Shown here: positions 921-27,268 of the stretch, piece by piece
How the letters are laid out: the number at the start of each line of letters is the position of its first letter
Numbering within the stretch: the stretch's first letter is position 1
IMG/VR virus record: IMGVR_UViG_3300046009_013647
Coordinates: 1-28,445 of that record
DNA length: 28,445 nucleotides
Source of the DNA: a virus
Direction: 5' to 3' (one strand)
Position numbers and translations under genes: made by a program
The notes under the pieces: model-generated
What the model saw: the letters and a program-made list of their open reading frames with translations, nothing else
What the model was told of the DNA's origin: nothing
Database searches by the model: none

Positions 921-928
921 ATAAATAT
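921..928 (-). promoter_or_regulatory. ATATTTAT element before portal gene
   Basis: The minus strand reads ATATTTAT and ends 16 bases before the portal ATG. The same 8-mer recurs in six other intergenic gaps of this window. It is a candidate phage promoter or leader signal; no experimental support is available here. Confidence 0.4.
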
Positions 929-2493
929 CAAAGAAGCCAACGGAGATCTTCCTGTTGGTTTCCTATTTTTTGTGTATAAGGATTTTGAACAGCATTACCT
1001 GAATATACTCCTCCTTGTGTTTTTGTCATACTACCTAAAGCGGCTCTAGTCATGTCTAAACCTTGTTGTTGGAATTTAAGTGAAGTATCTCTTAAAAGCA
1101 TACCAATACCAAACGACATTACTAAATCATCGTTGTATCCACCTTGTGCTTCTGGACGTCCGTTTTTCCAAATGAATACTTTCATTTCTTCTAGTAAACG
1201 TTTTGATTGGATTGTTACAGAATGGTCACCAACGTATTCTCTAAATTTGTTTACCACTAAAGGTCTGGTTTTTAAAGACATTGTAAAACCAGGAGTTAAA
1301 TTGTTGCCGTATTCATATCGGTTAAAATACGAATCAGCTGTTACTAAGTCACTCTTAGGTGACTGGTAGAAGTTCTGATAGCCGCGTTCTATAACAGTTT
1401 CAATAGTTGCCCAACCTACTGATGCATTTTCTATCACTAGTAGAGCATTGTTGTATTCAGAGGCTAAACCTACAAGAAAATGTCCAAATTCTTTTGGTGA
1501 TAATTGTCCTTTATATTCAGCAACTTGTGTATTGGTTTCAATATCCATTACGTGACACGCTGAAAAGTCTCTACCATCACCTCTAGCTACGTCAGCTACT
1601 ACCATGTAATCTCGCGTGTAAGAGGCAGGTTCCCATACCCATAGGTTTTTGTCTGCTCCGCGTCTTTCAACCGGTTCTTTAATGGTAGTTTGCGATATAA
1701 ATTCGATCCACTCTGGGTAAAATACTGTTTCACCTGAGGTGCTAAAGTCACAGTCACATTCCTGTGCTGCCATTCTAGGATCACCTAAAAGTTCATTTTG
1801 TTTCTTTCTCCACGCTTCGTCCCTCTCCGGGTGTACATACCAAGGTAACTTGATAGGTAAAAAGTCGTTCTCCTGTGCTTCCGCTCTTACCCATGTCTGG
1901 TGAAACCAGTTTCCAGTTCCATAAGGGGTTGAAAGTACTATTGCTCCACCACCCGTGGCAAGTGTTTGTTGTGCTGATGCCCATATTTCTCCAATGTTTT
2001 CAATAAATGCGGCCTCATCCACTATCAGCAAAGATACTGCTTCTGATCGACCAGCATCACCAGCTGCGGATACTGCTTTGATTTGAGAACCGTTATTTAA
2101 TCGTAACGTTAATTTGTTGTTTTCGTCTGCTGGTACTTTAAGCCATGAAGGTAAATTCTCGTACATGAATTTTACCTTAGTTACCATGTTTTTAGCTGTT
2201 TCTTGTTTTGTAGCTAAACAAAGTACGTTTTTGTCTTTGTGGAATGTCATCCACCAAAGTGAATACCCTGCGGCTAATGTAGAGATACCTAGCTGGCGGG
2301 ATTTAAGTACAATGGAATATGGGTTATCTTTCCATAAATTAAGTACTTTACCTTGGAAAGGGTATAGATTAAAGACAACACGGCCACGTTGGGGGTGTTG
2401 GATATAACAATATTTACGCATAAAGTGTGCTGGGTCTTGAGCACACTTAACATATTCTTGTTGGATTATTTTTCTTAGATCTTGATCACTCAT
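928..2493 (-). CDS. Terminase large subunit, T4 gp17-like packaging ATPase/nuclease
   Basis: This is the DNA-packaging motor: an N-terminal ATPase pumps DNA through the portal and a C-terminal RNase H-fold nuclease cuts the concatemer. At 521 aa it is slightly shorter than T4 gp17. Visible motifs are the Walker A variant KSRQLGIST (residues 64-72), Walker B LLIVDE (155-160) with the catalytic Glu, and a coupling motif STPYGTGNW (188-196). The nuclease acidic residues are D301 in VVADVARGDG, E355 in LLVIENASVG, and D455/D456 in GGYNDDLVMS. The ATG at 2493 lies 4 bases past the stop of the upstream lysis-type gene. No small terminase is evident nearby. The family call is very secure. Confidence 0.97.
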   Translation of the reverse strand: MSDQDLRKIIQQEYVKCAQDPAHFMRKYCYIQHPQRGRVVFNLYPFQGKVLNLWKDNPYSIVLKSRQLGISTLAAGYSLWWMTFHKDKNVLCLATKQETAKNMVTKVKFMYENLPSWLKVPADENNKLTLRLNNGSQIKAVSAAGDAGRSEAVSLLIVDEAAFIENIGEIWASAQQTLATGGGAIVLSTPYGTGNWFHQTWVRAEAQENDFLPIKLPWYVHPERDEAWRKKQNELLGDPRMAAQECDCDFSTSGETVFYPEWIEFISQTTIKEPVERRGADKNLWVWEPASYTRDYMVVADVARGDGRDFSACHVMDIETNTQVAEYKGQLSPKEFGHFLVGLASEYNNALLVIENASVGWATIETVIERGYQNFYQSPKSDLVTADSYFNRYEYGNNLTPGFTMSLKTRPLVVNKFREYVGDHSVTIQSKRLLEEMKVFIWKNGRPEAQGGYNDDLVMSFGIGMLLRDTSLKFQQQGLDMTRAALGSMTKTQGGVYSGNAVQNPYTQKIGNQQEDLRWLL

Positions 2494-3955: not shown

Positions 3956-3979
3956 CTCTAGATATATTATAGTTTTCTT

Positions 3980-3987
3980 ATAAATAT
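3980..3987 (-). promoter_or_regulatory. ATATTTAT element before AT-hook gene
   Basis: The minus strand reads AATATTTATAAG, ending 24 bases before the ATG at 3955 and touching the stop codon of the upstream kinase gene. It is one of seven copies in intergenic gaps. Confidence 0.4.
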
Positions 3988-4517
3988 TACAGAGAAAGTG
4001 TCTCTTTAATTTGTTGAATGCGATTTTCAGTAGTTCCTGAAATGCTGTGAAAGTTTTGTATTCTGTGTTTGTTTGACTTAATAAGATGGTTAATTGTAAA
4101 ATCAATTAAGTTACGATATTCCAGATTTGTTTCGCGTACACCATTATTTTCCATCTCTACACCCTCAGGAGATACATAAAAGATATAATCATATTCTGAA
4201 ATAAAATTACGAGCAAAATCAGTAAATGCCTCTTTATCAATATGATTTATTGTTTTAGATGCAATTGCAAACGCCATAACATCAATTACAGTACGATCTG
4301 TAATGATATTTTCTTGTATAAGCTCCATAGCTCGTTCAGCTAAAAATACTGTTTGACCTTTTAGTGTTGAGTCAGTATTTAATGGAATGCCTTGTTCCAT
4401 CAAATATTTTGAACGCTCAGTCCTGAAAGTATAATCTTTAAATTCAGGTAGCTCTTTAAGAGCATTTACAAGTGTAGTTTTACCTACACTCATTGTCCCA
4501 CATAATCCTATCTTCAT
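3987..4517 (-). CDS. P-loop nucleotide kinase/ATPase, NadR-like (AAA_28-type)
   Basis: A 176-aa P-loop protein with Walker A GTMSVGKTT (residues 7-15 from MKIGLCG). An aspartate-bearing strand follows (ITDRTVIDVMAFA), as in small-molecule kinases and the ATPase part of NadR, which phosphorylates nicotinamide riboside. I choose ATG 4517, which makes an ATGA overlap with the methyltransferase gene; ATG 4526 adds three residues. The protein is little more than the kinase core, with no helix-turn-helix and no nucleotidyltransferase. It ends the four-gene set that begins with the FAD enzyme at 7256. Substrate is unknown: a nucleoside, a sugar or an NAD precursor are all possible. Confidence 0.75.
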   Translation of the reverse strand: MKIGLCGTMSVGKTTLVNALKELPEFKDYTFRTERSKYLMEQGIPLNTDSTLKGQTVFLAERAMELIQENIITDRTVIDVMAFAIASKTINHIDKEAFTDFARNFISEYDYIFYVSPEGVEMENNGVRETNLEYRNLIDFTINHLIKSNKHRIQNFHSISGTTENRIQQIKETLSL

Positions 4518-5623
4518 ACTCTCCAAAAATACAAAAAGCTTTGATTACCGGCAATGGATACATGAAAATTAAAACCATATTGGTGAATAGTTTTAATAAA
4601 TTCTGTTCGAGCTTCTTCAGAATACCCAAATACATCTTCGTGATATTCAATAAAAATTTTACTAATTTTAGCCCAAGTTTCTGGTTGAATTGAAGGGATA
4701 AGTTCTTTTTCTCCACCTTCAATATCAATTTTAAGATAGTCTATTTTTTCTATATTATTACGTTCAATAATATCTTCTAAAGTAGTACATTTTAATATGC
4801 GTTTTACTTGCCAATTAGGCCACATACTAATTTCCATAAACCCTTTTTTATTAGAAACAGCAATATTTTCTAGTGTCCAATTTTTACCTGAGTTTTTCTG
4901 AAGAGCTTTAAATACATCTGGGTCAGGTTCAACAGCATAAATTTTAGATGCTCCTTTACTTTCAGCATAAGCACAATTCATACCAATATTAGATCCTAAA
5001 TCAACATAGATATCTCCTGGGTTAAGTTGGAAAAATTCGTTATCTAATTCTTTATGAGTAATGTTAGACCAATGCATAGCAGCTTCCCACCCAAGTTCTG
5101 CTTCAGCTTCTGCTTGAGAAATGGTATGAAGGTTCATACTAGAAAAATCAATCAATTTGTCATTTAAAGACCAAAATTTAGTTAAATCTCTAGATACTAC
5201 AACTTCTGGCAATTGCTGTTGAATAATTTCATTTACAAAATCATCTTGTGAACTGCCTGGTATAATACGATAACTATCTTCTTCATAGTGTTTAGTAGAT
5301 ACTTCAAAAATAGTAGCGCCTTCAGTTAATGCTGTAAGCTGGTGGGGTTGACCTCTTTCAAGATCAATTATATCTCCTTCTTTAATAGTTACAGTTTTAA
5401 CAGCTGCTTTTTCAGTATCGACCCAACTGTATTCAAATTCTCCTTTAGCTACATACCACGATTCTTTTTTAATCAAATGGTAGTGCATTGAAAACTTTTT
5501 ATCTTTACCAAATACTAGGAGTTTACCACAGTATTCTTCATCATTAATAATCCAAAGCTCATGTCCCCAAGCTTTTTTATAAAAGTCACCTTGACGAGGT
5601 ACTGGTTCGTATTTATGTCCCAT
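4514..5623 (-). CDS. Cupin-FkbM methyltransferase fusion
   Basis: A 369-aa two-domain protein. Residues about 10-115 form a single cupin barrel with metal ligands visible in MHYHLIKKES (H47, H49, E54) and PHQ (H94), of the type seen in sugar isomerases/epimerases. Residues about 195-365 are an FkbM-type SAM-dependent methyltransferase: VDLGSNIGMN (207-216) is the SAM loop, VEPDPD (231-236) the acidic ribose-binding turn, and DYLKIDIEGGE (295-305) the family signature. FkbM enzymes methylate sugar or polyketide hydroxyls. I place the start at 5623, a TAATG junction; the frame extends to 5665 but would overlap the 90-aa gene. A role in modifying a glycan or nucleotide-linked sugar is inferred. 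Confidence 0.85.
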   Translation of the reverse strand: MGHKYEPVPRQGDFYKKAWGHELWIINDEEYCGKLLVFGKDKKFSMHYHLIKKESWYVAKGEFEYSWVDTEKAAVKTVTIKEGDIIDLERGQPHQLTALTEGATIFEVSTKHYEEDSYRIIPGSSQDDFVNEIIQQQLPEVVVSRDLTKFWSLNDKLIDFSSMNLHTISQAEAEAELGWEAAMHWSNITHKELDNEFFQLNPGDIYVDLGSNIGMNCAYAESKGASKIYAVEPDPDVFKALQKNSGKNWTLENIAVSNKKGFMEISMWPNWQVKRILKCTTLEDIIERNNIEKIDYLKIDIEGGEKELIPSIQPETWAKISKIFIEYHEDVFGYSEEARTEFIKTIHQYGFNFHVSIAGNQSFLYFWRV

Positions 5624-5895
5624 TAGAATCGAGTTGTTCCGCGCATTGATGGATTTTTGTACCAAGGTAAGCCTTCTCTATTTTTACGGGCTTCTTCCCA
5701 CTGCTCAAGTGTTAGTTGGCGACCATATAAATGATATTCTTTTTTATATTCTGATTCTTCACCTTCGATAGGTTGAACCGCTGGTCCATCCCAATTGTGG
5801 TATTTCCAAGCATCACTACCACTTTCTTTAAAGAAATAGTGGTGTGCCCCTTTAGATCTCATTCGGCGTTCTTCGTAAATTGTTTCTTTTTTCAT
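5623..5895 (-). CDS. Small conserved-looking phage protein, function unknown
   Basis: A 90-aa protein with many Glu, Lys, Trp and Tyr residues. The most distinctive part is WKYHNWDGPAVQPIEG (residues 30-45), followed by YHLYGRQLTLEQWEEARK and GLPWYKNPS. The DGPA and LYGR pieces look like short beta-hairpin repeats of the MORN or wd-like kind, but only one full copy is present. It is translationally coupled on both sides: ATGA with the FAD dehydrogenase stop, TAATG with the cupin-methyltransferase start. I recognise the style from other aquatic phages but know no function. The coupling suggests it serves the same pathway as its neighbours. Confidence 0.7.
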   Translation of the reverse strand: MKKETIYEERRMRSKGAHHYFFKESGSDAWKYHNWDGPAVQPIEGEESEYKKEYHLYGRQLTLEQWEEARKNREGLPWYKNPSMRGTTRF

Positions 5896-7256
5896 ACTGC
5901 GTAATGGCTTAAAAATTCCGGATATTCGGTATCGCGAAGGTAATAAGAAAGAATGTCCTCGGCAACGTATATTGCCTGAGCTCCTGAAACTGTTATACCT
6001 CTAGCTGATAAAGCATCACCTACAAAGTGTACATTTGAGAACTTAGTAAGAGATAAGTTACGGTAGTTTACAAGTGGTTCTGGTGAAAGATATTTTACCT
6101 CGGGAACGTAAATACCCCAATCGTCTTGTAGTGTTGGAAATACTTTTTTCATATCCTCGATAAAATCCATAATATAGCTCCAATATTCACCCATTACGTT
6201 TTCTACTCCACTTAAATTATCGATTTGGAAAGCTGATACACCATTGCCTTCTGAGGTAGTAGAGGGGATTCGAGTAGGTGAATAGTATAAACCAGTACCA
6301 CCAAATTGAAGCTTGTTTACCACATCACGTGACCAAGTAAATGGATCTTCAATACCATTGATTTCCATCAAGATGCCAAAATTGGTCATCCCGTTTAGAT
6401 ATTTTGGATCTTTTTTAGCGTGGCCGTTATAGCTATGATCTCCATATGTTTCCTCTACAGCAACGTAAGCAGCATTGTTGTTTGTACAGAATGAGCGAAG
6501 CGAAACACCTTTATCTTCAAATTTGCGATACAACTTAAAGTCGTATGAAATATCAATTAGTTTTTGGAAGTGTTTTTGTGGTGCTTCAAATCGAACACCA
6601 ATTTGTACTGATTTGGGTTCATCTGGTAGGGTATATTCGTTTGCTAATTGTTGAGCAAAATCAATACCTGATTTACCTACAGCAAATATAAGTTCATCAT
6701 AGTCTAAAGTAGATATATTTAGTATAGGATTTGTAAGGTTAGTATAATTAACTTTATTAGCAATCATGGCTATCCCTGTTACTTTATTTTCCCAAATAAA
6801 TTTAACACCTTTAGACACTAAATAATCGTACCAGTTTTTAGCAATTTCAGATAGGTAATCTGTACCTACGTGCCATACAGGAAACAATCGTAAACCGAAG
6901 TATGGTTTAATGAAATCTGGTTCTGTATCTGGATTTGAACATTGTACTTCCTCTGGTTTAGGGTGGAAACGCTTAAAATTGGTGATGACTTGATCCATCA
7001 ATTCCATTGCTTTTTCCTCACCACAATACTTAGACAATTGACCTCCAATTGCTGTGTGATAAGTTAATTTACCATCTGACCAACCACCTGCTCCTAAAAA
7101 CCCTGTCATTACCTCTTCGGGTAAGCGGGTATATGGGTCTTTACCCATATCAATGATTGTGATTAGTTCACCAGGATAACCTTTATCTACAAGTTTGGTA
7201 GCAGCATTCACTCCTGCCACACCTGCACCTACGATTACAATTTTCTTTTCCTTCAT
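5892..7256 (-). CDS. FAD-dependent dehydrogenase (COG2509-like)
   Basis: A 454-aa flavoprotein. The N-terminal Rossmann motif KIVIVGAGVAGVNAA (GxGxxG at 10-15) binds the FAD ADP moiety. The segment GAGGWSDGKL (about 55-64) matches the loop typical of the uncharacterised NAD(FAD)-dependent dehydrogenases grouped as COG2509. The C-terminal HFVGDALSARGITVSGAQA is the usual FAD-closing motif. The length is near normal, so the enzyme looks intact. It is the first gene of a coupled set with the 90-aa protein, the cupin-methyltransferase and the kinase. A full-length enzyme of this kind is unusual in a phage and probably acts on a nucleotide or cofactor. Substrate is not known even for the cellular family. 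Confidence 0.85.
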   Translation of the reverse strand: MKEKKIVIVGAGVAGVNAATKLVDKGYPGELITIIDMGKDPYTRLPEEVMTGFLGAGGWSDGKLTYHTAIGGQLSKYCGEEKAMELMDQVITNFKRFHPKPEEVQCSNPDTEPDFIKPYFGLRLFPVWHVGTDYLSEIAKNWYDYLVSKGVKFIWENKVTGIAMIANKVNYTNLTNPILNISTLDYDELIFAVGKSGIDFAQQLANEYTLPDEPKSVQIGVRFEAPQKHFQKLIDISYDFKLYRKFEDKGVSLRSFCTNNNAAYVAVEETYGDHSYNGHAKKDPKYLNGMTNFGILMEINGIEDPFTWSRDVVNKLQFGGTGLYYSPTRIPSTTSEGNGVSAFQIDNLSGVENVMGEYWSYIMDFIEDMKKVFPTLQDDWGIYVPEVKYLSPEPLVNYRNLSLTKFSNVHFVGDALSARGITVSGAQAIYVAEDILSYYLRDTEYPEFLSHYAV

Positions 7257-7623: not shown

Positions 7624-8227
7624 TCATATCGTAATAAAAAGAATCTCCATCTTCAGTAATCCATCTATCAGATTGATTTTCCACGCTTGGAAGTTCTGTA
7701 TCTACTTTATATTGCTTTAAATCCTCTGGAAGTGGTTTAGTTACCCAGTTTGAGTCTTTCCAGAATATTCTATTATTGGGCATACACATTAAATATCCTT
7801 CATCGGATTCAAATATATGACCACATTTGTAATCTGTTGGTTCATCGCTGTATGGATTATTAAACCAATCTACAGTAAACATATATGTGCCCCAAACTTT
7901 ACTTCCGTCTCTTAAAACAATTTGTGCTCTGTGGTATGCTAAAAAGCTATATTCTATAACAGCTACGTTTTCACTAAAACAATCCCATAACTGTTTAAAG
8001 TTAAAGGGAATATCGTTTGTTGGAATTTCTGTATAAATTTCGGAAAGTGGAACACGAGAACGAATCATTCCGTTATCTGTCATAACGTGGAATGTTAATA
8101 TAGTTCCTGCGCAAGATTGAAGACCAAAAACGTATACATTATAGAATTCGTTATGGTCTTCTTGGTTTTTTGTAAAATATGATTTACGAACTAGCGCTTT
8201 AAAGCTAGGAATGTTTGCGTTAAGCAT
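7610..8227 (-). CDS. Hypothetical phage protein, 205 aa
   Basis: A soluble-looking protein with no membrane segment, rich in aromatic residues (W, Y, F) and acidic at the C-terminus. The N-terminal half (FYNVYVFGLQSCAGTILTFH) looks beta-rich; the middle has the segment AYHRAQIVLRDGSKVWGTYM (residues about 98-117), and the C-terminal part ends DGDSFYYDMNETV. I recognise no catalytic motif or family. It begins at a TAATG junction with the tagged 105-aa gene and overlaps the following 89-aa gene by 14 bases. It carries no L-x-E/A leader, unlike most genes upstream of it, so it marks the edge of the tagged cluster. Confidence 0.7.
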   Translation of the reverse strand: MLNANIPSFKALVRKSYFTKNQEDHNEFYNVYVFGLQSCAGTILTFHVMTDNGMIRSRVPLSEIYTEIPTNDIPFNFKQLWDCFSENVAVIEYSFLAYHRAQIVLRDGSKVWGTYMFTVDWFNNPYSDEPTDYKCGHIFESDEGYLMCMPNNRIFWKDSNWVTKPLPEDLKQYKVDTELPSVENQSDRWITEDGDSFYYDMNETV

Positions 8228-8544
8228 TAATTTTCTCTGATAAGTAGTTCACCTAGTACCTCTAAACGACCAACTTCACGTTGGAATTCTGTTTGGGTCA
8301 TATCTAATGATATTTTTTTATAGGTTTCATCAAATTCTTTTTTAGCTGCTTCTTTATCAAATTTACCTTTTATAGCTTTTTTATAGTAGGATGGTTTAAC
8401 ATTAAAGTGGGTGTATGTTAATAAAGCATCGCCGCCTTTTTCTTTAGCATTAGCTATAATTTTTTCAGCACCTGCTAAACGATTTTCAGCAAATGTTTCA
8501 AAGCTTTCTTTAGCTTCGGTTAGTAGTTGAAGCAATTTAATCAT
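8227..8544 (-). CDS. Small helical protein with T4-like capsid-targeting leader
   Basis: A 105-aa, mostly helical and Lys/Glu-rich protein. Its first ten residues, MIKLLQLLTE, are followed by Ala. This matches in length and in the L-x-E/A junction what I know of T4 internal proteins (MKTYQEFIAE before Ala), whose leader carries them into the prohead and is then removed by gp21. The remainder (AKESFETFAENRLAGAEKII and a basic YYKKAIKGKFDKEAAKK) has no motif I recognise. It lies between the Cys-rich 203-aa gene (1-bp gap) and the 205-aa gene (1-base overlap). An internal head protein is the best inference. Confidence 0.72.
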   Translation of the reverse strand: MIKLLQLLTEAKESFETFAENRLAGAEKIIANAKEKGGDALLTYTHFNVKPSYYKKAIKGKFDKEAAKKEFDETYKKISLDMTQTEFQREVGRLEVLGELLIREN

Positions 8545-8545
8545 A

Positions 8546-9157
8546 TCACCAAAATCCTGAAAAGTTAGACTTAAGTCCTAATAGTTTAGCATAACGTGGT
8601 AGACGGCAGCTCCAATATGAAGCCTTTGTTCTATCTTTTTTATTTTTACAATCGTGGCGAGCTGCAAATGCTCTACGTGCTTCTGGGTTATTAATCTTAG
8701 CTGATAAGCCGGTTGTATCACCAAATGATACTTTTTTAATTCCACCCCCAGGTTTTCTTACGTAAACGTAGAATTTTTTAGAACCTCCACGTTTTGGTTT
8801 ACCAATTGGAGGATTTTTCTTTTTCTTGTCGGCTTCGTCTATTTCCTGCTCTTCAAAGATAAAATCTAAAGGTACTTTTTGATTCTCGTATAAACCGAAA
8901 TGACCTAAATCGGTTTCAGTTAGTATCTCTAAATCATCTCCTTGTACCTCAATGATGTTGCGGCTATATAAAGCGCGTGCTTCTGCCCATAAATTAAAAT
9001 AGCTCTCCGAGCCTGCACGGTACACGTGCTCTGTAAGAGGTCGTGCGTTATCTAAGTGATATTTCAACCCTTCGGAAAGAATTGCTCTTGGTGCTACACT
9101 TTCGTTTAGCATTACTGGTTTTTTAGTATCGCAAGTATTGCAGCCGCAGTCACACAT
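8546..9157 (-). CDS. Tagged protein with basic Cys C-terminal module
   Basis: A 203-aa protein with three visible parts. The N-terminus MCDCGCNTCD has four Cys in ten residues and could bind metal. Two protease-type junctions follow: MLNE/S (E19) and ILSE/G (E29). After an acidic middle (FIFEEQEIDEAD) a basic C-terminal module begins with GSKKFYVYVRKPGGGIKKV and ends AFAARHDCKNKKDRTKASYW then SCRLPRYAKLLG. I have seen this ARH-x-C...YWSCR pattern at the ends of other marine phage proteins but know no function; Lys/Arg content and two Cys suggest nucleic-acid binding. It sits 1 bp after the nuclease-like gene. Packaging in the head is inferred from the leader. Confidence 0.72.
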   Translation of the reverse strand: MCDCGCNTCDTKKPVMLNESVAPRAILSEGLKYHLDNARPLTEHVYRAGSESYFNLWAEARALYSRNIIEVQGDDLEILTETDLGHFGLYENQKVPLDFIFEEQEIDEADKKKKNPPIGKPKRGGSKKFYVYVRKPGGGIKKVSFGDTTGLSAKINNPEARRAFAARHDCKNKKDRTKASYWSCRLPRYAKLLGLKSNFSGFW

Positions 9158-11911: not shown

Positions 11912-12724
11912 TTAAAAATCCGAATCTACTCTGGTGCCGAGTACATTATCGTCTTGAGATGCATTTACTTTTTTTTGTTGACCTCTTTTAATTCTACTAT
12001 TAAATAAAGCTTCTTCATCACCTACAACATCTCTATCTTTTATAGATATTCTATATATTTTTTTACCTTTTAGTTCAGGTGGAGTAGCACCATTATCTAC
12101 TATATAAAAAAGAGATCTATCTGGTGCTGATAATCTAATATAAAAATAATTAGGATCATCTTTATCTAGTAATTTTTCGTTACTATAACGGCCAAATTCT
12201 CTAGAAGCTTTATCTTTTAATTCGTAATCTGGGACTTCACCTCCTGAATCTTTTCTAGTGTCTCTTAAAGCACCAGTACTAGCTCCAAGTCCTGTAAGAG
12301 CTCCTGCTAAAGTCAAAGTTAAAATCGCTGGAAGAGTAATAGGGTTTAATAAAGCAAAAGCACCTATAGCTAAGGTTCCTACTCCAGCTCCAGTTGCCAT
12401 TTTGCCAAGAATTTCCTTAAAATATTCTGATTTTTGGGTTTGTTTTGCCTGGTCTATTGTTACTTCATCTAATGAATTAGAAATAGATTTCAAAACAGAT
12501 TCAGGAGAAGAACCTGCTTTTAATTGCTTAGCGGCCTTAACAATTTGATCTATGTCAATCCCTGCAGATTTAGCTTGGGATATATATTGTTGAAGTTGCT
12601 TAGGATCTTTAGCTAAATCCTTTGCAATTTTTTCAGAAGCATCAATTAACTTACCTGTATCAGGTTTGGTTTCTTCATATAATTTACCTTCAACAAGATA
12701 TTTTCTTAGATCAAAATTGCTCAT
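11912..12724 (-). CDS. Tagged membrane-segment protein (NFDLRKYL leader)
   Basis: A 270-aa protein starting MSNFDLRKYLVE/G, with a protease-type L-x-E/G junction at E12. The leader is nearly identical to that of the 251-aa protein at 14322-15077 (MDNFDLRKYL), while the bodies differ. After an acidic/helical region (to about 105) come two hydrophobic Gly/Ala-rich segments at about 108-126 (GKMATGAGVGTLAIGAFALL) and 129-150, probably two membrane helices forming a hairpin. The soluble C-terminal domain (about 160-270) contains RLSAPDRSLFYIVDNG. Membrane segments behind a head-targeting leader are unexpected for a capsid protein and could suit one that enters the host membrane during infection; that is inference. 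I recognise no family. Confidence 0.72.
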   Translation of the reverse strand: MSNFDLRKYLVEGKLYEETKPDTGKLIDASEKIAKDLAKDPKQLQQYISQAKSAGIDIDQIVKAAKQLKAGSSPESVLKSISNSLDEVTIDQAKQTQKSEYFKEILGKMATGAGVGTLAIGAFALLNPITLPAILTLTLAGALTGLGASTGALRDTRKDSGGEVPDYELKDKASREFGRYSNEKLLDKDDPNYFYIRLSAPDRSLFYIVDNGATPPELKGKKIYRISIKDRDVVGDEEALFNSRIKRGQQKKVNASQDDNVLGTRVDSDF

Positions 12725-13297: not shown

Positions 13298-14011
13298 TTA
13301 CATATCTATATCTTGGTTATCCCTTACTAATTCATTCCATTCAGGAATTCTTTCTAATATAGCAAGTACTCTTTTACCTTCATCACCCATTTCTAAAAGT
13401 TGGTTAAGTATCGCCATTACATTATTAAAAGTAATAAAATCACCTTCGTTTAACAATGCTTTAGCGTACTCGCCTTCTGTTAAAAGGCCAGCTAGTTTTT
13501 TCATTCTAAGGATTTCGAGTGATTCGTCCACTTTTGCTTTTGTAGGCTCGTCACCTGCAACAACGAAATCACGAGTAAAGAATGTGATTGTGTTACCAAC
13601 CTGAGTGATGAATTTTTGATCACCAAACTCTTCTGCTTGTGCTCTTAGAGTTTCTAGTGTGTCAAGGATTTTTCTTGTTTCACCTGGGAGAGAAGATAAA
13701 GAAACAATTCTTTTATCTACTACGATTGAATCGTTTGCTGTTTTTTCTTCAGCGTCTACTTCCATGTCTGTTTCTTCTTCAGCGTCTACTTCCATGTCTG
13801 TTTCTTCTTCTTCAGCTTCAGCTAAATATGGATCTACTTTAGTACCTGTGATACGAGCTAGAATATCGTCTAGGCTTTCTTCTTCGTCTTCGGCTTCATA
13901 AACAGGATCGTACATACCACCTAAAGCAGCATCATCGTCTTGAGCATTAGTGAAATCTGCCTCTGATAAGAAAGCAGTTTTAATCATTTCTTTAAGTTCT
14001 GATTTTTTCAT
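13298..14011 (-). CDS. Acidic tagged protein, possible prohead core or internal protein
   Basis: A 237-aa protein with leader MKKSELKEMIKTAFLSE/A (E17), a clear L-x-E/A junction. Residues 20-92 are extremely acidic (EDEEESLDDIL, then two tandem copies of EETDMEVDA encoded by a perfect 30-bp duplication). Additional protease-type sites are YLAE/A (E65), LLTE/G (E179) and LLNE/G (E189). In T4, acidic scaffolding-core proteins such as gp22 and gp67 are cut several times by gp21, so several sites in an acidic protein fit a core protein. The segment RMKKLAGLLTE (169-179) is shared with the 87-aa protein at 22098 (RMQKLAGVLKE). A promoter-type element lies 17 bases upstream. Function is inferred. 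Confidence 0.72.
   Translation of the reverse strand: MKKSELKEMIKTAFLSEADFTNAQDDDAALGGMYDPVYEAEDEEESLDDILARITGTKVDPYLAEAEEEETDMEVDAEEETDMEVDAEEKTANDSIVVDKRIVSLSSLPGETRKILDTLETLRAQAEEFGDQKFITQVGNTITFFTRDFVVAGDEPTKAKVDESLEILRMKKLAGLLTEGEYAKALLNEGDFITFNNVMAILNQLLEMGDEGKRVLAILERIPEWNELVRDNQDIDM
13751..13810. repeat. Perfect 30-bp tandem duplication within coding sequence
   Basis: Two identical 30-bp units (13751-13780 and 13781-13810, each starting AGCGTCTACT) lie head to tail and are in frame, duplicating ten residues of the acidic stretch. Perfect identity at synonymous positions indicates a recent slippage or duplication event. Confidence 0.9.
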
Positions 14012-15081: not shown

Positions 15082-15606
15082 TTATCCTTGCATTTGCCCT
15101 TTACAAACTTTAACAGCACGACCTGAGAGATAAGCGGATGATTTTTCTCCAGCTGCTTGTCTCTTTTTGATATATGCTTTACCTTTTGGGCAAAGTTCCT
15201 CGTATACCATATTTTCACCTAAACGGATAGTCTCGTCAATATCATCTACGTTAGCAATCTTCATTAAGATTCTGTCTAATACCGCTGGTGTAAGGCCTGG
15301 TGTTTTACCTCCTGGAAATTCGGGGTCGTCTTTTAAATATTGTGAATAGCCTGTTTCTTCTTCGATTGGTTCGCCTACAATATCAGTGTAATCTTCCATT
15401 GAAAGAAGACCTCTTAACTTAACTGCCTCGATAGCGCGTTCTGTTACCTTGTGTAGATCAATATCTTGTTCGGCGTCCTCTCTTGCGTATTCTAACATGC
15501 GAAGAAATAGGGGCACATCCATTGCGATAATGTCTGTTGGGTCTTCTTGTGATTGCTCTGGGAGTGGTTTAGAGAAGAATTCTTGTACTTTTTTTAGGTC
15601 TTTCAT
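15082..15606 (-). CDS. Phage protein with basic Cys-pair C-terminal module, 174 aa
   Basis: The N-terminal two thirds are acidic and helical, with DVPLFLRMLEYAREDAEQDI (residues 30-49) and LTPAVLDRILMKIANVDDID (105-124), both strings I associate with marine phage proteins of unknown function. The last 40 residues form a basic module bounded by Cys139 and Cys168: ELCPKGKAYIKKRQAAGEKS then SAYLSGRAVKVCKGQ. This CxKGK...SAYxxGxAVxVCKG pattern also looks like a mobile phage module. No L-x-E/A leader is seen at the N-terminus. The gene overlaps the 161-aa gene (ATGA) and precedes the membrane-segment gene by 4 bp. Confidence 0.72.
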   Translation of the reverse strand: MKDLKKVQEFFSKPLPEQSQEDPTDIIAMDVPLFLRMLEYAREDAEQDIDLHKVTERAIEAVKLRGLLSMEDYTDIVGEPIEEETGYSQYLKDDPEFPGGKTPGLTPAVLDRILMKIANVDDIDETIRLGENMVYEELCPKGKAYIKKRQAAGEKSSAYLSGRAVKVCKGQMQG

Positions 15607-16088
15607 TTTTTGTTAAATCTAATTCTTGGCCAGAAATCTCTTTCTCCAGGTTCATAATCATAATCAAAGTTAGATCGTTTTTTATCTACTATATAACCTT
15701 TAGATTCGATCCAATTAATCATTCTTTCAGCTGTGTCGTCTCCAATAATATCTTTTGTACGTATAGTGATACTATCTTCATCACTACTAGCTCGGACTTT
15801 AAATTCTTCACTGAATTCTTCGCCTAAACTTTTTTCAGCTTCATTTAAAGATTCTTTCATACCTAATTCGGCGTGAAGTATATCCATAAAAGGATTAAAA
15901 TTTTGAGAACCGTATTCGTCCTTTAAAATTTTAGCTACTGCTAAAGCAAAATCCTTATATGATAGATTTTCATCTACGGTTTCAATTGCCTTGCTAATTA
16001 CTGTAGCAGTTTTATCAGAGATATTTTCTAGAAGACCTGCTTCTGAAAGATATTGTTGCTTAAACCATTTAGTAGTATTGAATCCCAT
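15603..16088 (-). CDS. Tagged helical protein, 161 aa
   Basis: The leader MGFNTTKWFKQQYLSE/A (E16) is amphipathic and ends in an L-x-E/A junction, the best match to a capsid-targeting sequence in this stretch. The body is acidic and helical up to about residue 85 (including ESLNE/A as a second possible site), then a C-terminal beta-like part (FKVRASSDEDSITIRTKDI ... ERDFWPRIRFNKK). No known domain is recognised. A promoter-type element lies 13 bases before the start. It overlaps the following 174-aa gene by 4 bases. Packaging into the head is inferred from the leader. Confidence 0.72.
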   Translation of the reverse strand: MGFNTTKWFKQQYLSEAGLLENISDKTATVISKAIETVDENLSYKDFALAVAKILKDEYGSQNFNPFMDILHAELGMKESLNEAEKSLGEEFSEEFKVRASSDEDSITIRTKDIIGDDTAERMINWIESKGYIVDKKRSNFDYDYEPGERDFWPRIRFNKK

Positions 16089-16109: not shown

Positions 16110-16690
16110 TAGTCTTTCTTTAGACTTTGCAGATATTTAATAGTTTCTTCTTTTGATTCAAGAAGTTTATTTTTTACTGAACCTGTCCATTTTTCAACAT
16201 CACCTGCTTCGGTAATATAGGACTGAATATCACTATGTTCTATTTCTTCGTTAATCCAAATTTGGAATTCTTGGATGATACCTTCAATATCGGAATTATG
16301 TATCATTTTTTCATATTCTTCCCAAAGTCCCTGTTTTCGAATTTCATATTCAAAATCAATTTGACAGTTAAAGCAGCGCTTATACATGCTATACCACTTT
16401 TTATCCAAGTGGGGTTTCATCGGTTTTTTACACGAGGGGCAAAAAATCGGGAAATTAACTGCTTTACGGGCAGCATCAAGTTTCGTAACATTTTGTTTAA
16501 TGCCCTCCTTAATAGTCCATGTCTTATCTCCTTCAACCCATATATCTCCTTCGCTATGCGGACCTTCTTGCCCTTTTGTAAAACCGACTGATACTTGGGA
16601 TTTATCTGCATGTTTGCCTTTTACTAAATTTCTTAACCTTTGAACGTCTTTTTCTGCAAATTGTTTTTTTAGAACATTATCTTTACTCAT
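16109..16690 (-). CDS. Zinc-ribbon protein, conserved marine phage type, 193 aa
   Basis: The N-terminal part (MSKDNVLKKQFAEKDVQRLR ... SVGFTKGQ) leads into GDIWVEGDKTWTIKEG (48-63), then a four-Cys zinc ribbon, CPSC (84-87) and CFNC (106-109), with an intervening HLDKKWYSMYKR. The C-terminal third is helical, with SYITE/AGDVEKW (E161 before Ala) as a possible protease site far from the N-terminus. I recognise the overall pattern from T4-like phages of marine bacteria but no function has been assigned to my knowledge. The ribbon suggests nucleic-acid or protein binding. The start overlaps the stop of the 813-aa gene (ATGA). Confidence 0.78.
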   Translation of the reverse strand: MSKDNVLKKQFAEKDVQRLRNLVKGKHADKSQVSVGFTKGQEGPHSEGDIWVEGDKTWTIKEGIKQNVTKLDAARKAVNFPIFCPSCKKPMKPHLDKKWYSMYKRCFNCQIDFEYEIRKQGLWEEYEKMIHNSDIEGIIQEFQIWINEEIEHSDIQSYITEAGDVEKWTGSVKNKLLESKEETIKYLQSLKKD

Positions 16691-19128
16691 AAACCTAGTT
16701 CTTGTAACTGTTTGATTGTGTTAGCTGCTGAAGTGTGTAATATGCCTATACCACCGTTAGCATTCCATTTATCGATAGTATCTTTTCTATCGTCAATTAA
16801 AATTTTGTTTGGTCCCGCAAAATCCGCTTTTCTACCAGCAGAGCGGAAATATATTTTACGCATATTAGGTAAACGTTGAACCCACTCGGTTTTACCTTGC
16901 ATTGATTCATTGTTTTCTACTTTGTAACGCTCCTCAAATGGGATGTCGAAATTAACAGAAGGAGCGGTTAAAACATATGGGTTATATCCTTTGATATAGT
17001 CCCAAAGTTGTTTTCCGTCGGGCATCCAATCTAGGTTAGCCCAATATGAACGTTCGGGAATGTCTTTTTCTTTTAGACTGTTTCTAAATAAACTCCAAAA
17101 TTCGTTTTTACCTTGTGAATCGGCGTGTTGGGTGCTTACACCTGTTAGTTCTTTATACCCCTCATCGAAGTCTACTAACACACCATCCATGTCACAAAAT
17201 ATCACATATTTCTTCTCTCCCATTTCCTTATCCATTTTTTCAACACCCGTATCATGAAGGTACGAGGTCTCTTTTACATAGTCACTGGTAAAGGAGGGTA
17301 AACCTAGAGGTTTTAATCTTTTAGCCCATAAATCAAGAATTTCTTTTCTTTCTTTTTGATTAACAGGTTGCTTGTCTAAATAATCATCTATAACTGCTAA
17401 GAATGGTCTTCTAGATTTTTTGGCTTTAAGGTACATTCCCTGAAGCATAGCATCCACTTCTTTTTCTAGTTTAAAGTAAGCTGATTTAGGAAGTAGATCG
17501 GCATCAATCATTCTTCTTAAAAGTGTATCATCATCCATTAACTTTCCAGGTCTTACTAATCTAGGATCTTTTTGAGCTCTAGGATCATCTATTGTAACTA
17601 CTCCCTTTACGTTAGCTCCTTCTTGAGTTAAGTGTTCTAGCTCGTGCCTAATAACGTCTTTTAAATCAAATGATACTGTCTGCCAGTCTATATCTTTGGG
17701 AATATCAAAGCGAACTGAAAGAAGTGGTTGGATTTCTTCATCATTCTCATCATATCCAGCGTTTGCCCCTCCATCTACTTTATAGGTATCTTCTGTGTAG
17801 ACTGCTTGAATTGCAAAATCAAATTCGAAATCATCAGAGACAATATCTGGATCTTCATCAGCTGGTCCTACTACAAATAACTCGTCTACTACTTTTTTAC
17901 CAACATCGTAGCCGTCTTTGATTAACTCAAATGCTAAACGAGAAAGCTCGTTGGTGAATTTATCGTAGCGACCTTCTGTTAGCTGTTCTTCTTCTAACCC
18001 TTGAGCTAGTTCGCGAGCGTATTGGTTTAGACCAAATGGATCTTTTACTTTACCGCTTGGATTATTTTGTTTTTTGTAGTCATCCATGTTTTTATTGGAT
18101 GTTTTTTGACCATCTTCCTGTAAACTATCTGTCCAGTTACGGAACGTCATAGTACCCTTTAGATTAGCTTCAGCTTCAATATCGTTTAGATGATCGTCCT
18201 CTTGAGTATTTGTAGTTGTAATATCTCCTAATCTACCCTCTAGATTTTGAATGTGGTGAATTATCTCATGCGCGTAAGAACGCACAATATCTTTGGGATG
18301 ACGCCCGTAAGTGTATAGGGTGATAGACTTATTGATCGGATCATAGTACGCGGTTTTACCCAAGAATTCTTCGGCATTATTTACGTCATCACCTACTAGC
18401 TCAATGCTAGGAGCTGGATCGATATTGTATCCTTTCCCACGCATGTAATTGGTTAACTCGGCTATTTTTTCGAGTATGTCAATAGATGGAATAGTGTTTT
18501 CTTTTAGTGGTTTGTATCCTGAACCGTATGGGGCTGCTTTGCCTGGTGTTTCTTTTAAAACGTTGGGCTCCAAAATATTGTAGATATCCTCTTTCTCGTT
18601 AGCTGGAATCTCAGTAGGCAAATAAGTGAAGAATTTCTCTTTATCTCCTTTTTGAAGTGCTTTACGAGCGTTTGTTCCGCTCATATCACCAGCTGGAGTT
18701 TTGATTACTCGAACCTCAACGTTTGGGTATTTTTCTTCTACCCCTTTAGTGCGCGATTTGATATCTTGTAGATCGTCTTCTCTACCTTCACGATAACCCA
18801 AAACAAAGTATATTTTCTCGTCTGGGTGGTTTTTAGCGTAACGTAAGATATCTCCGATTGGGGTTGTGGATGGTTCTATTTGAACTTTAGATGGGAGCAA
18901 TTCCTTGTAAATATCCCATACTTGCATAGATTGTTCTTGTTCGATTCCATCTCTAACACCTCCACCAACATAGATTAGAAATTTGTCTATGTCTTTGAAA
19001 TCTTTTAAAGCGGTTTTAACTAAGTCAAAGTGACCTTTGGTAGGTGGTTTAAAACCACCCCCATAGATTGCTGTAACGGATTTTCCGTCTATTAGCTCGT
19101 TAACTAAAAACTTTGTAAGTTGGTCCAT
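16687..19128 (-). CDS. Four-domain protein: nucleotidyltransferase, two zincin-like domains, HAD phosphatase
   Basis: An 813-aa multidomain protein. (1) Residues 17-160 are a cytidylyltransferase-like nucleotidyltransferase: GGGFKPPTKGHFDL (23-36, with the GH of HxGH-type sites) and MSGTNARKAL (149-158) for the downstream S/T-x-x-R motif. (2) About 215-330: AHEIIHH, an HExxH metallopeptidase motif at 287-291. (3) About 384-600: a second HExxH, RHELEH (495-499), in a segment beginning EGRYDKFTNELSRLAFELI. (4) About 638-813: HAD-type phosphatase like 5'(3')-deoxynucleotidases, with FCDMDGVLVDFD (D646, D648), T721, K746 and ILIDD (D779/D780). QLTE/G (E385) between domains 2 and 3 fits the prohead-protease rule, so it may be a polyprotein. 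Leader MDQLTKFLVNE is amphipathic but an imperfect match. It overlaps the zinc-ribbon gene by ATGA. Confidence 0.85.
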   Translation of the reverse strand: MDQLTKFLVNELIDGKSVTAIYGGGFKPPTKGHFDLVKTALKDFKDIDKFLIYVGGGVRDGIEQEQSMQVWDIYKELLPSKVQIEPSTTPIGDILRYAKNHPDEKIYFVLGYREGREDDLQDIKSRTKGVEEKYPNVEVRVIKTPAGDMSGTNARKALQKGDKEKFFTYLPTEIPANEKEDIYNILEPNVLKETPGKAAPYGSGYKPLKENTIPSIDILEKIAELTNYMRGKGYNIDPAPSIELVGDDVNNAEEFLGKTAYYDPINKSITLYTYGRHPKDIVRSYAHEIIHHIQNLEGRLGDITTTNTQEDDHLNDIEAEANLKGTMTFRNWTDSLQEDGQKTSNKNMDDYKKQNNPSGKVKDPFGLNQYARELAQGLEEEQLTEGRYDKFTNELSRLAFELIKDGYDVGKKVVDELFVVGPADEDPDIVSDDFEFDFAIQAVYTEDTYKVDGGANAGYDENDEEIQPLLSVRFDIPKDIDWQTVSFDLKDVIRHELEHLTQEGANVKGVVTIDDPRAQKDPRLVRPGKLMDDDTLLRRMIDADLLPKSAYFKLEKEVDAMLQGMYLKAKKSRRPFLAVIDDYLDKQPVNQKERKEILDLWAKRLKPLGLPSFTSDYVKETSYLHDTGVEKMDKEMGEKKYVIFCDMDGVLVDFDEGYKELTGVSTQHADSQGKNEFWSLFRNSLKEKDIPERSYWANLDWMPDGKQLWDYIKGYNPYVLTAPSVNFDIPFEERYKVENNESMQGKTEWVQRLPNMRKIYFRSAGRKADFAGPNKILIDDRKDTIDKWNANGGIGILHTSAANTIKQLQELGL

Positions 19129-19491
19129 TTACTTAAGCTTCATGATAAGCTCTTTGGCCTTGCTTTTCTTTTCTTCAATTTCTTTTTTAGCTGTTCTGTA
19201 CTCGTCCATTTCACGCTTAAGAGCTTCTTTCTGCATTTCGTACTCTTTCATAGCTAATTTAGCTGCCTTACGAGCTGCTGATTTATTATTAGAAGTGTAA
19301 GCACCCGCAATCTCGTTCATATCAATTTGATCATAGATTGAAGCAGGACGAACCATATCGTCCATAGACATACCTCTTTTAGGTTTCATTACAAGAATGA
19401 TCTCGCCGATCTCGTTATATGGCTCTACCATTTCCATTGTTTCTGCTTCAAGGGCTTCCTTGATAAGGGATTTTAATACTGATTTTTTCAT
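19129..19491 (-). CDS. Tagged coiled-coil protein, 120 aa
   Basis: The leader MKKSVLKSLIKE/ALEAE (I10-K11-E12 before Ala13) is amphipathic and fits the protease rule; it resembles MKKSELKEMIKTAFLSE of the protein at 13298. The middle contains IGEIILVMKPKRGMSMDDMV. From about residue 65 on the protein is a Lys/Glu-rich coiled coil (AARKAAKLAMKEYEMQKEAL to the end). No catalytic motif is seen. It overlaps the kinase gene by ATGA and abuts the 813-aa gene directly (stop next to start). An internal or scaffold-like head protein is the likeliest reading. Confidence 0.72.
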   Translation of the reverse strand: MKKSVLKSLIKEALEAETMEMVEPYNEIGEIILVMKPKRGMSMDDMVRPASIYDQIDMNEIAGAYTSNNKSAARKAAKLAMKEYEMQKEALKREMDEYRTAKKEIEEKKSKAKELIMKLK

Positions 19492-20291
19492 GAGTTAAGG
19501 AATTGTTTTATTTTAGATTGTGCTTCTGGGATAGAAACGGTTTGTTGTAAAATGTCTTGAACGTTTTTCTCGTCGCGTAATGATATAATTTCTTGTTCAA
19601 GTTTTTCTTTTTCAGCTCTAGATCTAGCCTGTTCTTTTTCTGTTTTTGGTTTAGTATCTTGAGGGGTAAATGGTTCGAGGTAGCGCTTTACGATTTTATC
19701 TAAGCTTGCTTTACCGAATGGATCCTTATCTTTTGTAGTAGCTACAAAGTTTTGACCGAATAAGTTAAGGTACGGGATAAAGTTTTTAGTTACGTTAGCC
19801 CACGTTTGCATTACAATACCAGGCATTAAACTTCTATCCTCACCAGCAGAACGCTCGAATCGATCTTCGTTTTTCTTAAGTGATTTCTCAAGTGAAGAAT
19901 ATACAAACACCATCATTACATCGTACCCAGCTGCCTCTAAAGTATTTTTTAGCGATTCTGTTTTCTTGTATGATGCTGCTGTACCATCGATTACGATGTT
20001 TTCTCTAGAGCCAATCTCTTGTGCTAAAGCCTCTTGATAGTCTTTTTGGGCAGCTTGCATAGCACGAGCAGCTCCACTTCTACCTTCAGCATCTGCCATT
20101 TTTAAGTCAAGTGAAATACCTGCGTCGCGAAGGTTTTTGATAAAGAAATCGTCAATGTTCATTACTTTTAAACCAAGGTCTCTAATAACATCGTCTATAA
20201 CAGAGGATTTACCAGCGCCAGGGGCACCAGCTAAAATAATAGCTTTAGGGGCACCTTGTGCCTCTCTAAGTAATCTCACTAATGAAATCAT
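19488..20291 (-). CDS. Tagged P-loop kinase, zeta-toxin-like
   Basis: A 267-aa protein. Its first ten residues, MISLVRLLRE, are followed by Ala11, the same length and junction as T4 internal-protein leaders. Immediately after comes Walker A GAPGAGKSS (22-30), then MNIDDFF (44-50), a DGTAAS segment near 97-102 and a C-terminal charged coiled coil. The layout fits small P-loop kinases of the zeta-toxin/AAA_33 group, which phosphorylate nucleotide sugars or other small substrates. If the leader is cut, an active kinase would be carried in the head and could act in the newly infected cell; that is inference. It has a promoter-type element 16 bases upstream and overlaps the next gene by ATGA. Substrate is not determinable. 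Confidence 0.82.
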   Translation of the reverse strand: MISLVRLLREAQGAPKAIILAGAPGAGKSSVIDDVIRDLGLKVMNIDDFFIKNLRDAGISLDLKMADAEGRSGAARAMQAAQKDYQEALAQEIGSRENIVIDGTAASYKKTESLKNTLEAAGYDVMMVFVYSSLEKSLKKNEDRFERSAGEDRSLMPGIVMQTWANVTKNFIPYLNLFGQNFVATTKDKDPFGKASLDKIVKRYLEPFTPQDTKPKTEKEQARSRAEKEKLEQEIISLRDEKNVQDILQQTVSIPEAQSKIKQFLNS

Positions 20292-25579: not shown

Positions 25580-27268
25580 TTATACTTGGGGTAAAGGTTG
25601 TTGGCAAATTTTGAATACATGTCCCCATCTTCCTCGAATCATAGTATTAACATTACCCTGAGCTTCAGGATTTAGTATAATATACCCTTCATCATCCTCA
25701 GGATTATCAGCATTAATTATAGTAAAACCTATCCCATAATGGTTATATCCTGAAATATCTGCAACTCCTGTGGATCTCCAGTTATTAGTAGCTCTAACAA
25801 AAGTTTCACTAAGGAATGGGGTGTCACTAGCATTTATACCTCCTATAAATCTAACATTATATTCAATTACCTTAGGATTATTAGTAGAAGTATTAGGATT
25901 ATAAGGATCATAATATAAATCAGGACCCCAAAATGTTTCTAAGTGAGCAGGTTTAGGAGTTAACCCAAATACCATCATACAAACCCCAAATGAAGCAAAA
26001 TCATTAGATCCAGTTATGTTTCCTATAAAAGAAAAATTAGTTGCTAAATATGGTCTTCTATAAGCTGGAGCTGTTGATGGGTCTGGGTCTTGAGCGTATG
26101 GAGTGTACATAACAGTATCCATAGGTAGCATGTTAGAAATTTCTCCAGCATAAAGAGGGTCTTGGTCTAAAAGGCTACCTTCATAAGTAGCAGGAGACGT
26201 AAGAGAAGCTAGGATGGCATTGGCAAAATTTGTATTAATTTTAGCATTAGGAACAGAAACTGGGATTTCAGAAGTACCTCCTGTGTAAGCCGGGTTATTA
26301 AAGTTATACATCTCATAAGAAGGAGTAGTACTAATTCCCCCAGCTTGAGTAGCTAATATAGGTAAAGTATAAAGTCTTCTAAATTTTAACTGAACATTTT
26401 GAGCTGTACTTTGAAGAATAGCTGCTGATTGAAATGCTACAGCATTACCACAAGTAGCCCCTCCTGTAGGAGAAGTACCAGAAGTACCGGCAACCCCAGA
26501 ACTACCAGTAGCACCTGAAGTACCACTGACTCCTGAAGTGCCATTTATGCCTGATGTGCCTGCAATTCCTGAAGTACCGTTAACACCTGAGGTACCGTTA
26601 GCACCAGAAGTACCTGCTGTACCGTTTATACCAGAGGTACCTGAAATTCCTGAAGTACCTGAAATGCCATTTGTACCTGAAGTTCCAGAAGTACCTGCTG
26701 TACCGTTTATACCAGAGGTACCTGCGATGCCTGAAGTTCCAGCAATTCCTGAAGTACCGTTAGTACCTGAGGTACCTGCAGTACCGTTAATTCCTGAGGT
26801 ACCATTAATACCAGAAGTACCATTAATACCTGAGGTGCCGTTGATTCCTGAAGTACCACTTATACCTGCAGTTCCTGAAGTTATACCTGGGGTTGAAGTA
26901 CCTGAAGTACCTGCAATACCCGAAGTGCCATTAGATCCTGAAGTACCTTGAGCTCCACTAGTTCCAGTTGTTCCTGATGTGCCAGGAGAACCTACACCAG
27001 AAGTACCTGAGGTGCCTCGAGCTCCTGAAGTTCCTGTAGTACCTGAAGTACCATAAGAGAAACCGGATGTACCAGCAGTACCCGCTCCACTTGTTCCTCC
27101 CCCACCTTCTGTAAGAGAAGTAATACCATCATTATCAATGGTTAAAACATAGTTTTGCCATCCTGAAGGGATGATGGGTAGATTAAATTTATTAAAGGCT
27201 AAACGTCTATCTACCCAAATACCACCATCAGTATCAACTCGTTTATTGGCTATTCTTTTCTCACCCAT
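25580..27268 (-). CDS. Collagen-like tail fibre or appendage protein
   Basis: A 562-aa protein in three parts. Residues 1-54 form an attachment domain (VDTDGGIWVDRRLAFNKFNL). Residues about 55-270 are Gly-x-y triplets built mainly from G-T-S, G-I-N, G-I-A and G-T-A (for example GTSGINGTSGINGTSG), a collagen-like rod that should trimerise. Residues about 271-562 form a globular C-terminal domain rich in aromatic and Pro/Asn residues, plausibly the receptor-binding or particle-surface head. Phage collagen-like proteins are usually fibre stalks. The repeat DNA is near-periodic at 18 bp, so length changes by slippage or recombination are likely. It is 6 bp after the upstream structural gene. Receptor unknown. 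Confidence 0.85.
   Translation of the reverse strand: MGEKRIANKRVDTDGGIWVDRRLAFNKFNLPIIPSGWQNYVLTIDNDGITSLTEGGGGTSGAGTAGTSGFSYGTSGTTGTSGARGTSGTSGVGSPGTSGTTGTSGAQGTSGSNGTSGIAGTSGTSTPGITSGTAGISGTSGINGTSGINGTSGINGTSGINGTAGTSGTNGTSGIAGTSGIAGTSGINGTAGTSGTSGTNGISGTSGISGTSGINGTAGTSGANGTSGVNGTSGIAGTSGINGTSGVSGTSGATGSSGVAGTSGTSPTGGATCGNAVAFQSAAILQSTAQNVQLKFRRLYTLPILATQAGGISTTPSYEMYNFNNPAYTGGTSEIPVSVPNAKINTNFANAILASLTSPATYEGSLLDQDPLYAGEISNMLPMDTVMYTPYAQDPDPSTAPAYRRPYLATNFSFIGNITGSNDFASFGVCMMVFGLTPKPAHLETFWGPDLYYDPYNPNTSTNNPKVIEYNVRFIGGINASDTPFLSETFVRATNNWRSTGVADISGYNHYGIGFTIINADNPEDDEGYIILNPEAQGNVNTMIRGRWGHVFKICQQPLPQV
26459..27106. repeat. 18-bp-periodic tandem repeat coding Gly-x-y
   Basis: Degenerate copies of a unit such as CCTGAAGTACCATTAATA (plus strand) run through this segment, encoding GTSGIN-type hexapeptides on the minus strand. 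Copies vary at third codon positions, so the array is old or under diversification rather than freshly expanded. The complementary frame is also open, as an artefact. Confidence 0.88.

Follow-up and report, generated by a model that had tools for sequence, protein, structure and literature searches.

In bacteriophage T4, the internal proteins IPI–IPIII and Alt carry a short N-terminal propeptide that ends in L/I-x-E (PMC9026906). Capsid-targeting sequences (CTS) of this kind are N-terminal propeptides of 10–19 residues, and the T4 prohead protease gp21 cuts after L/I-X-E (PMC9026906). The T4 internal proteins are single proteins which lose terminal propeptides (PMC9026906). In phiKZ and SPN3US heads, many packaged proteins are cut after Glu by relatives of gp21; the cuts reported there take off propeptides, the phiKZ motif being S/A-x-E, and a chain of several enzyme modules is not reported for these phages in the portion of the source available to us (PMC9026906). 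The polyvalent proteins described by Iyer et al. in 2017 (PMC5512222) combine disparate enzyme domains in one polypeptide, occur in a phage context and have shuffled architectures. Their authors drew a comparison to the polyproteins of RNA viruses and proposed release by peptidase domains within the chain (PMC5512222). A third group comprises the cytidyltransferases of cyanophages and pelagiphages (T4-GC190; phrog_3041/395; HTVC008M and S-SM1). The T4-GC190 cytidyltransferase has been detected in S-SM1 virions (PMC3037559) and a cytidylyltransferase, an NMNAT homologue according to its authors, in S-CREM2 virions (PMC10665884).

The stretch of viral DNA analysed here, referred to as the window, is 28,445 nucleotides long (IMG/VR record IMGVR_UViG_3300046009_013647). 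It encodes a protein of 813 amino acids which shares features with all of these systems. As with the T4 internal proteins, a gp21-family protease occurs in the same phages and diverse cargo is exchanged among relatives; the N-terminus is a short propeptide-like sequence that ends in V-x-E in the window protein and that resembles the T4 format less closely in some relatives. Unlike the T4 proteins, the family carries several enzymes per chain, in 3–9 segments, each set off from the next by a site. It satisfies the architectural criterion for polyvalent proteins (a single phage chain, encoded close to late genes, that unites two or more dissimilar activities), whereas its boundary sites would serve a separate capsid-maturation protease rather than an embedded peptidase. 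With the cytidyltransferases it shares a nucleotidyltransferase fold class, a CTS-like N-terminus, several LxE sites and, in the case of HTVC008M, a related gene neighbourhood; in those phages, however, the two HExxH modules are absent and the HAD domain lies on a separate gene.

We consider it highly likely that the product of this gene is a polyprotein which a T4-like phage packages in its head as cargo and which a gp21-family protease cuts after [LIV]-x-E into about four enzymes. This reading is built on the observed modularity of the family, the position and conservation of sites at module boundaries and their location in linkers, the presence of the protease in the same phages and the conserved active sites, while cleavage, packaging, ejection and targets are inferred. 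A literature search on prohead-protease cleavage of polyproteins in phages, which did not cover subscription papers, turned up the paper on polyvalent proteins and nothing that describes the present arrangement; such a polyprotein strategy has not clearly been described in phages before.

The gene and its four modules

The reading frame runs on the minus strand from an ATG at 19128 to a stop at 16687 (Table 1). An earlier note, made from the sequence alone, had the coordinates and length right and left out the strand. The motifs it named are all found in the translation, those with stated residues at these residues: GGGFKPPTKGHFDL at 23–36, HEIIH at 287–291, HELEH at 495–499 and DMDGVLVDFD at 646–655, together with LKE/ at 193 and 210 and QLTE/G at E385 (codon 17974–17976; a slash marks a putative cut). 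Two further putative sites are FLVNE/11, which ends the N-terminal peptide, and VKE/620, between the second HExxH module and the HAD module.

Table 1. Features of the window discussed in the text (module names as used throughout; NT, nucleotidyltransferase; M1 and M2, first and second HExxH modules).
Feature	Position	Strand	Basis and remarks
Large terminase subunit, T4-type, head-gene anchor	928..2493	-	phrog_2, E=2e-51
Putative cargo polyprotein, 813 aa	16687..19128	-	Order CTS-NT-M1-M2-HAD
HAD module, residues 621-813, 5'(3')-deoxyribonucleotidase-like	16687..17268	-	phrog_2643, E=1e-26; conservation; separate gene elsewhere
M2 module, residues 386-620, second HExxH, VKE/620 at end	17269..17973	-	Conservation; site contexts
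M1/M2 junction element, residues 363-385, DPFGLNQYARELAQGLEE/EQLTE/, helix-plus-site repeat including E385	17974..18042	-	Linker in model; recurs in relatives
M1 module, residues 211-385, zincin-like HExxH	17974..18498	-	Residue conservation; weak Peptidase_M91/DUF6782 similarity in homologues
Spacer, residues 194-210, LKE/193 to LKE/210	18499..18549	-	Extra modules here in L002, L004, L005 and L009; pLDDT <50
NT module, residues 12-193, NadD/PPAT-type nucleotidyltransferase, LKE/193 at end	18550..19095	-	Structure matches by Foldseek and VIA-align (highest Z 18); motif conservation
Capsid-targeting-like N-terminal helix, residues 1-11, MDQLTKFLVNE/, V-x-E end	19096..19128	-	Helix in model; format common to neighbours and solo HAD genes; T4 CTS description in PMC9026906
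Neighbouring cargo candidate, P-loop kinase, N-terminus MISLVRLLRE/	19488..20291	-	Syntenic with NT in Pelagibacter phage HTVC008M

The NT module is a NadD/PPAT-type nucleotidyltransferase by its fold (VIA Z of 15–18 against PPAT and NadD structures) and its (H/T)xxH and S-x-x-R-type motifs, though its substrate remains unresolved. The motifs GGFKPPxxxH and SGTxxR are conserved among 128 copies and are represented in the window protein by H33 and SGTNAR. In M1 the ligand-type residues H287, E288 and H291, with E318 or E320 as candidate third ligand, are kept in 95% or more of the 108 copies. The corresponding residues of M2 are H495, E496 and H499 with E557 as candidate third ligand, and the HExxH and a downstream Glu are conserved. 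The HAD module has DxDGV, the S/T of motif II, the Lys and the DD pair, with D646, D648, K746, D779 and D780 conserved. In each of the four modules the active-site residues are kept in at least 95% of copies, from which we infer that the enzymes are probably active.

A Pfam search with the full-length protein returned only sub-threshold matches, with NT5C below the cut-off, and the matches for M1 and M2 are weak. The folds of the two HExxH domains are unresolved because the VIA-align and Foldseek lists were taken up by matches to the NT domain. We do not claim a new fold for either of them.

A modular family in related phages

Homologues were sought in IMG/VR, with at least 366 confirmed matches for NT and at least 539 for M1. 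Profiles of NT, M1, M2 and HAD were then run on ORFs from about 200 loci, and architectures were counted on complete ORFs. The window protein belongs to a large modular family present in uncultured T4-like phages and in the cultured Flavobacterium phage immuto. The commonest multi-module architectures are NT-M1-HAD (27 ORFs), NT-M1-M2-HAD (23), NT-M1 (20), NT-M2-M1 (7) and NT-M1-M2 (6), followed by NT-M1-M2-M2-HAD (2) and NT-M2-M1-HAD (1); HAD stands alone in 26. This mix is not a census, since the searches were seeded with the same modules. Additional modules lie between the four, including zinc ribbons, a GTGKKPKGSSRRLYTDEDP module and others which match Polbeta, YunG-like, DUF6934 and, weakly, RegB-like domains. 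At one locus (L005) an unrelated module stands in place of the entire M2, with LxE-type junctions. Judged from these comparisons, the window protein represents one way of combining modules that are exchangeable and vary in order and number.

In immuto, a single gene (gp088) encodes NT-M1-M2 together with an additional N-terminal domain, and the gene next to it (gp087) encodes HAD. HAD is its own gene in immuto and at 25 other loci, so the separate-gene homologues which the earlier note had proposed to look for do exist for this module. Phage records searched for NT or M1 gave four immuto-type records and no others. In immuto and in one further locus (L051), a long extra sequence precedes the usual NT module; it gives a second NT match in L051 and the impression of a polymerase-beta-like nucleotidyltransferase in gp088.

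Putative cut sites at module boundaries

Since the window protein contains 16 [LIVM]xE triplets, a single LxE proves nothing. What goes beyond chance is the comparative pattern, in which putative sites coincide with the boundaries of module exchange among homologues. We aligned 140 polyproteins with one another by BLAST, derived boundaries from the alignments with no reference to any motif, and collapsed them to 249 peaks in 35 non-redundant representatives. An [LIV]xE lies within 3 residues of 142 of the 249 boundaries, whereas 1000 circular shifts gave 27.3±5.0 and never more than 46. Split by P3 residue, the observed and expected numbers are 78 and 12.1 for LxE, 38 and 7.8 for VxE and 33 and 8.6 for IxE, whereas FxE is found at 2 (4.4 expected). 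None of the control motifs is enriched at these boundaries ([LIV]xD, 20 vs 31.5; [LIV]xK, 49 vs 42.1; [LIV]xN, 23 vs 21.5; [STA]xE, 16 vs 24.9). The boundary z-score of 22.9 is descriptive and gives no strict probability, because the sequences are related and the boundaries are BLAST ends; the specificity against control motifs is the stronger argument.

Conservation at the individual junctions follows the same pattern. Each of the 38 distinct contexts before M2, which begins with G-x-Y-D, has E as its P1 residue and L, I, V or M as its P3 residue, whereas positions P2 and P4–P8 are variable. An [LIVM]xE precedes M1 in 102/102 distinct contexts and is present in 48/48 HAD linkers. P3 in this family thus includes V and M, beyond the L/I documented for T4. 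A helix of the form DPFGLNxYAxELAxGLxE occurs in 81 distinct copies, 77 of them followed by [LIVM]xE, and was not found among the other ORFs of the fetched loci, outside the polyprotein family. This helix may serve for targeting from within the chain, or as a spacer. Cutting 88 polyproteins in silico at the sites gives 3–9 segments each, with a median of 134 aa.

The AlphaFold2 model used here was built with 63 aligned sequences (mean pLDDT 83.6, pTM 0.40), a run with six sequences (mean pLDDT 48.5) having been discarded. Four domains are modelled with confidence, and the linkers, at 193–213, 340–360, 369–384 and 615–636, have low confidence. The sites at 193, 210, 380, 385 and 620 lie inside these linkers or within 1 residue of them, and most of the remaining [LIVM]xE triplets sit within confident folds. 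We set aside the LxE at 132, 224, 416, 687, 692 and 810 as cut sites, as they are structured in folded domains of the model. A buried E385 site would have counted against the earlier note, but the model places it in a linker, outside any fold, so this structural test fails to refute the proposal. The two LKE sites that the note listed at 193 and 210 are module boundaries as well, as is VKE at 620, which it had not listed. The two fragments of 385 and 428 residues that it expected give way to at least four enzyme-bearing products, predicted at about 20.6, 19.9, 27.0 and 22.3 kDa.

A prohead protease in the same phages

Peptidase_S77, the gp21 family, is encoded in four of the closest contigs and in immuto, while the window contig ends short of the protease gene. 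Among 16 long contigs, 12 carry the S77 protease; the other four are probably fragments, because the major capsid gene is missing from them too. The N-termini of the S77 proteases of related phages carry VLIE/T and QLTE/G, the latter being the same as the E385 site. Fifteen capsid proteins of related phages have conserved sites in their N-terminal region (GLLE/G, ILE/NQAKQ and LV[VMT]E/), and LV[VMT]E/ is near the position expected for the T4 capsid propeptide, a correspondence which we infer by analogy.

The sites could nevertheless be relics in an uncut, polyvalent-type protein whose domains cooperate, as fusion of genes that begin with LxE-ending peptides would leave such triplets at the junctions and solo HAD genes do begin in this way. 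Relics would be expected to decay, yet before M2 the E at P1 and the L/I/V/M at P3 are invariant while the surrounding linker varies. The sites also persist in reordered or duplicated modules, and the S77 protease is found in all site-bearing phages wherever head genes are sampled. Because P1 and P3 are conserved at reshuffled junctions, we regard an uncut protein as improbable.

It is also conceivable that the chain processes itself through an embedded HExxH domain. Both M1 and M2 keep residues of zinc-ligand type, and release by an embedded peptidase is the published model for polyvalent proteins (PMC5512222). However, relatives that have no HExxH, namely the cyanophage proteins and the NT polyproteins in HTVC008M and Melnitz, are rich in LxE, which argues against cutting by M1 or M2. 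Neighbouring genes without a peptidase domain also encode N-terminal peptides that end in this site, and the motif agrees with S77 specificity. Self-processing is in our view less likely still than an uncut protein, and cutting by the S77 protease remains the preferred reading.

Putative N-terminal targeting

The N-terminal peptide MDQLTKFLVNE/, shared by the window protein and its close relatives, matches the T4 propeptide format with V at P3. The N-termini at two other loci (L001 and L009; MNRLVKEIVNSILQE and MNQLVKELIRPLLEN) are less neat. Solo HAD genes start in a similar manner, for example with MYKLTDLYKQIKE/ and MKLIQLLRE/. In immuto, an [LIV]xE at residues 6–20 is found in 23/34 genes of the head/cargo cluster and in 41/195 genes elsewhere (Fisher p=1.7e-7), the cluster limits having been chosen after viewing the genome. 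The same test gives p=0.80 for [LIV]xD, p=0.63 for [STA]xE and p=0.02 for [LIV]xK. In the window, 17/29 non-tail genes and 0/6 tail genes have an N-terminal [LIV]xE. Entry into the head by way of an N-terminal targeting peptide is the most likely route, which adds to the idea of the earlier note. We know of no cleavage product or virion peptide for the window protein or its immuto homologue.

The S-SM1 cytidyltransferase begins with MKKFSAFLNE/A. The cyanophage proteins proven to be in virions are distant, having only the NT module in common with the window protein (window NT to phrog_3041, E=8e-6). An unpackaged enzyme serving nucleotide metabolism in the infected cell, to which the kinship of NT and HAD with nucleotide-metabolism enzymes would point, is very unlikely, because the gene belongs to a cluster, next to the terminase, of genes with capsid-targeting-like N-termini and the cyanophage NT relatives are virion proteins. 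None of the three alternatives is excluded on the present evidence. The sequence comparisons (junction sites conserved across swapped modules, S77 in the same phages) strongly support and extend the central inference of the earlier note, that a polyprotein is split by a cut of the prohead-protease type as the head matures, cleavage itself being inferred.

Proposed mechanism and implications

According to the packaged-polyprotein reading, the N-terminal amphipathic peptide, perhaps together with the internal DPFGLN...LEE helix, would bring the chain into the assembling head in the manner of T4 internal proteins. During head maturation the gp21-family (S77) prohead protease would cut the linkers at 11, 193, 210, 380/385 and 620, releasing about four compact enzymes of 20–27 kDa: the nucleotidyltransferase, the HAD nucleotidase and, between them, two domains that resemble zinc-dependent hydrolases. 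The freed enzymes would leave with the DNA through the portal and tail and take effect in the host as infection begins. The size of the segments is compatible with exit through the portal, which we infer from the argument made for IPI (PMC9026906). Roles in nucleotide or NAD metabolism or in counter-defence are plausible and untested. Because each module would be bounded by a cut site, phages could swap, reorder, add or duplicate modules freely.

Whether this amounts to a general plug-in cargo system of T4-like marine phages is, in our estimate, evenly balanced. In such a system, exchangeable cassettes of early-infection enzymes would lie between capsid-protease sites, the DPFGLNxxAxELAxxLxE helix would serve as an internal targeting element, and one targeting peptide would load several enzymes in equal dose for release at head maturation. 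If the polyprotein is processed as proposed, capsid-targeted internal proteins and polyvalent proteins would be joined in one scheme, with processing like that of RNA-virus polyproteins carried out by the head-maturation protease. The cargo of uncultured marine phages would then be readable from sequence alone, each piece after an [LIV]xE cut being a candidate early effector. Immuto offers a cultured test case, since its protease (gp070), capsid protein and polyprotein have all been identified. The putative cut sites may, in addition, suggest where several proteins could naturally be joined for delivery into phage heads.

Neighbouring genes

Many small neighbours of the polyprotein gene have amphipathic N-termini ending in LxE (MKKSxLKxLIKE, MISLVRLLRE and MSNFDLRKYLVE). 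They lie on the minus strand at 3188–4045, 8227–8544, 11912–12724, 13298–14011, 15603–16088, 19129–19491 and 19488–20291, and are likely to form, judging by these N-termini, a whole cluster of packaged cargo genes. Comparison of the neighbours at 3188–4045 and 8546–9157 with the closest long contig in the neighbour-gene comparison (G005, 43443–44243 and 48659–49495) suggests that segments between LxE sites have been gained or lost. A GGSKKFYVYV...CRLPRYAKLLGL module forms its own gene in the window (8546–9157, minus strand) and in immuto, and in Methylophilales phage Melnitz (L244:1587-3539) it forms the C-terminal part of the NT polyprotein, behind an LIE/ site.

Two metabolic-looking genes on the minus strand are placed between the terminase and the cargo genes, a fusion of a cupin and an FkbM-like methyltransferase (4514–5665) and an FAD-dependent protein (5892–7256), both named by sequence impression only. 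A fibre-like protein with long GTSG repeats is encoded at 25580–27268, also on the minus strand.
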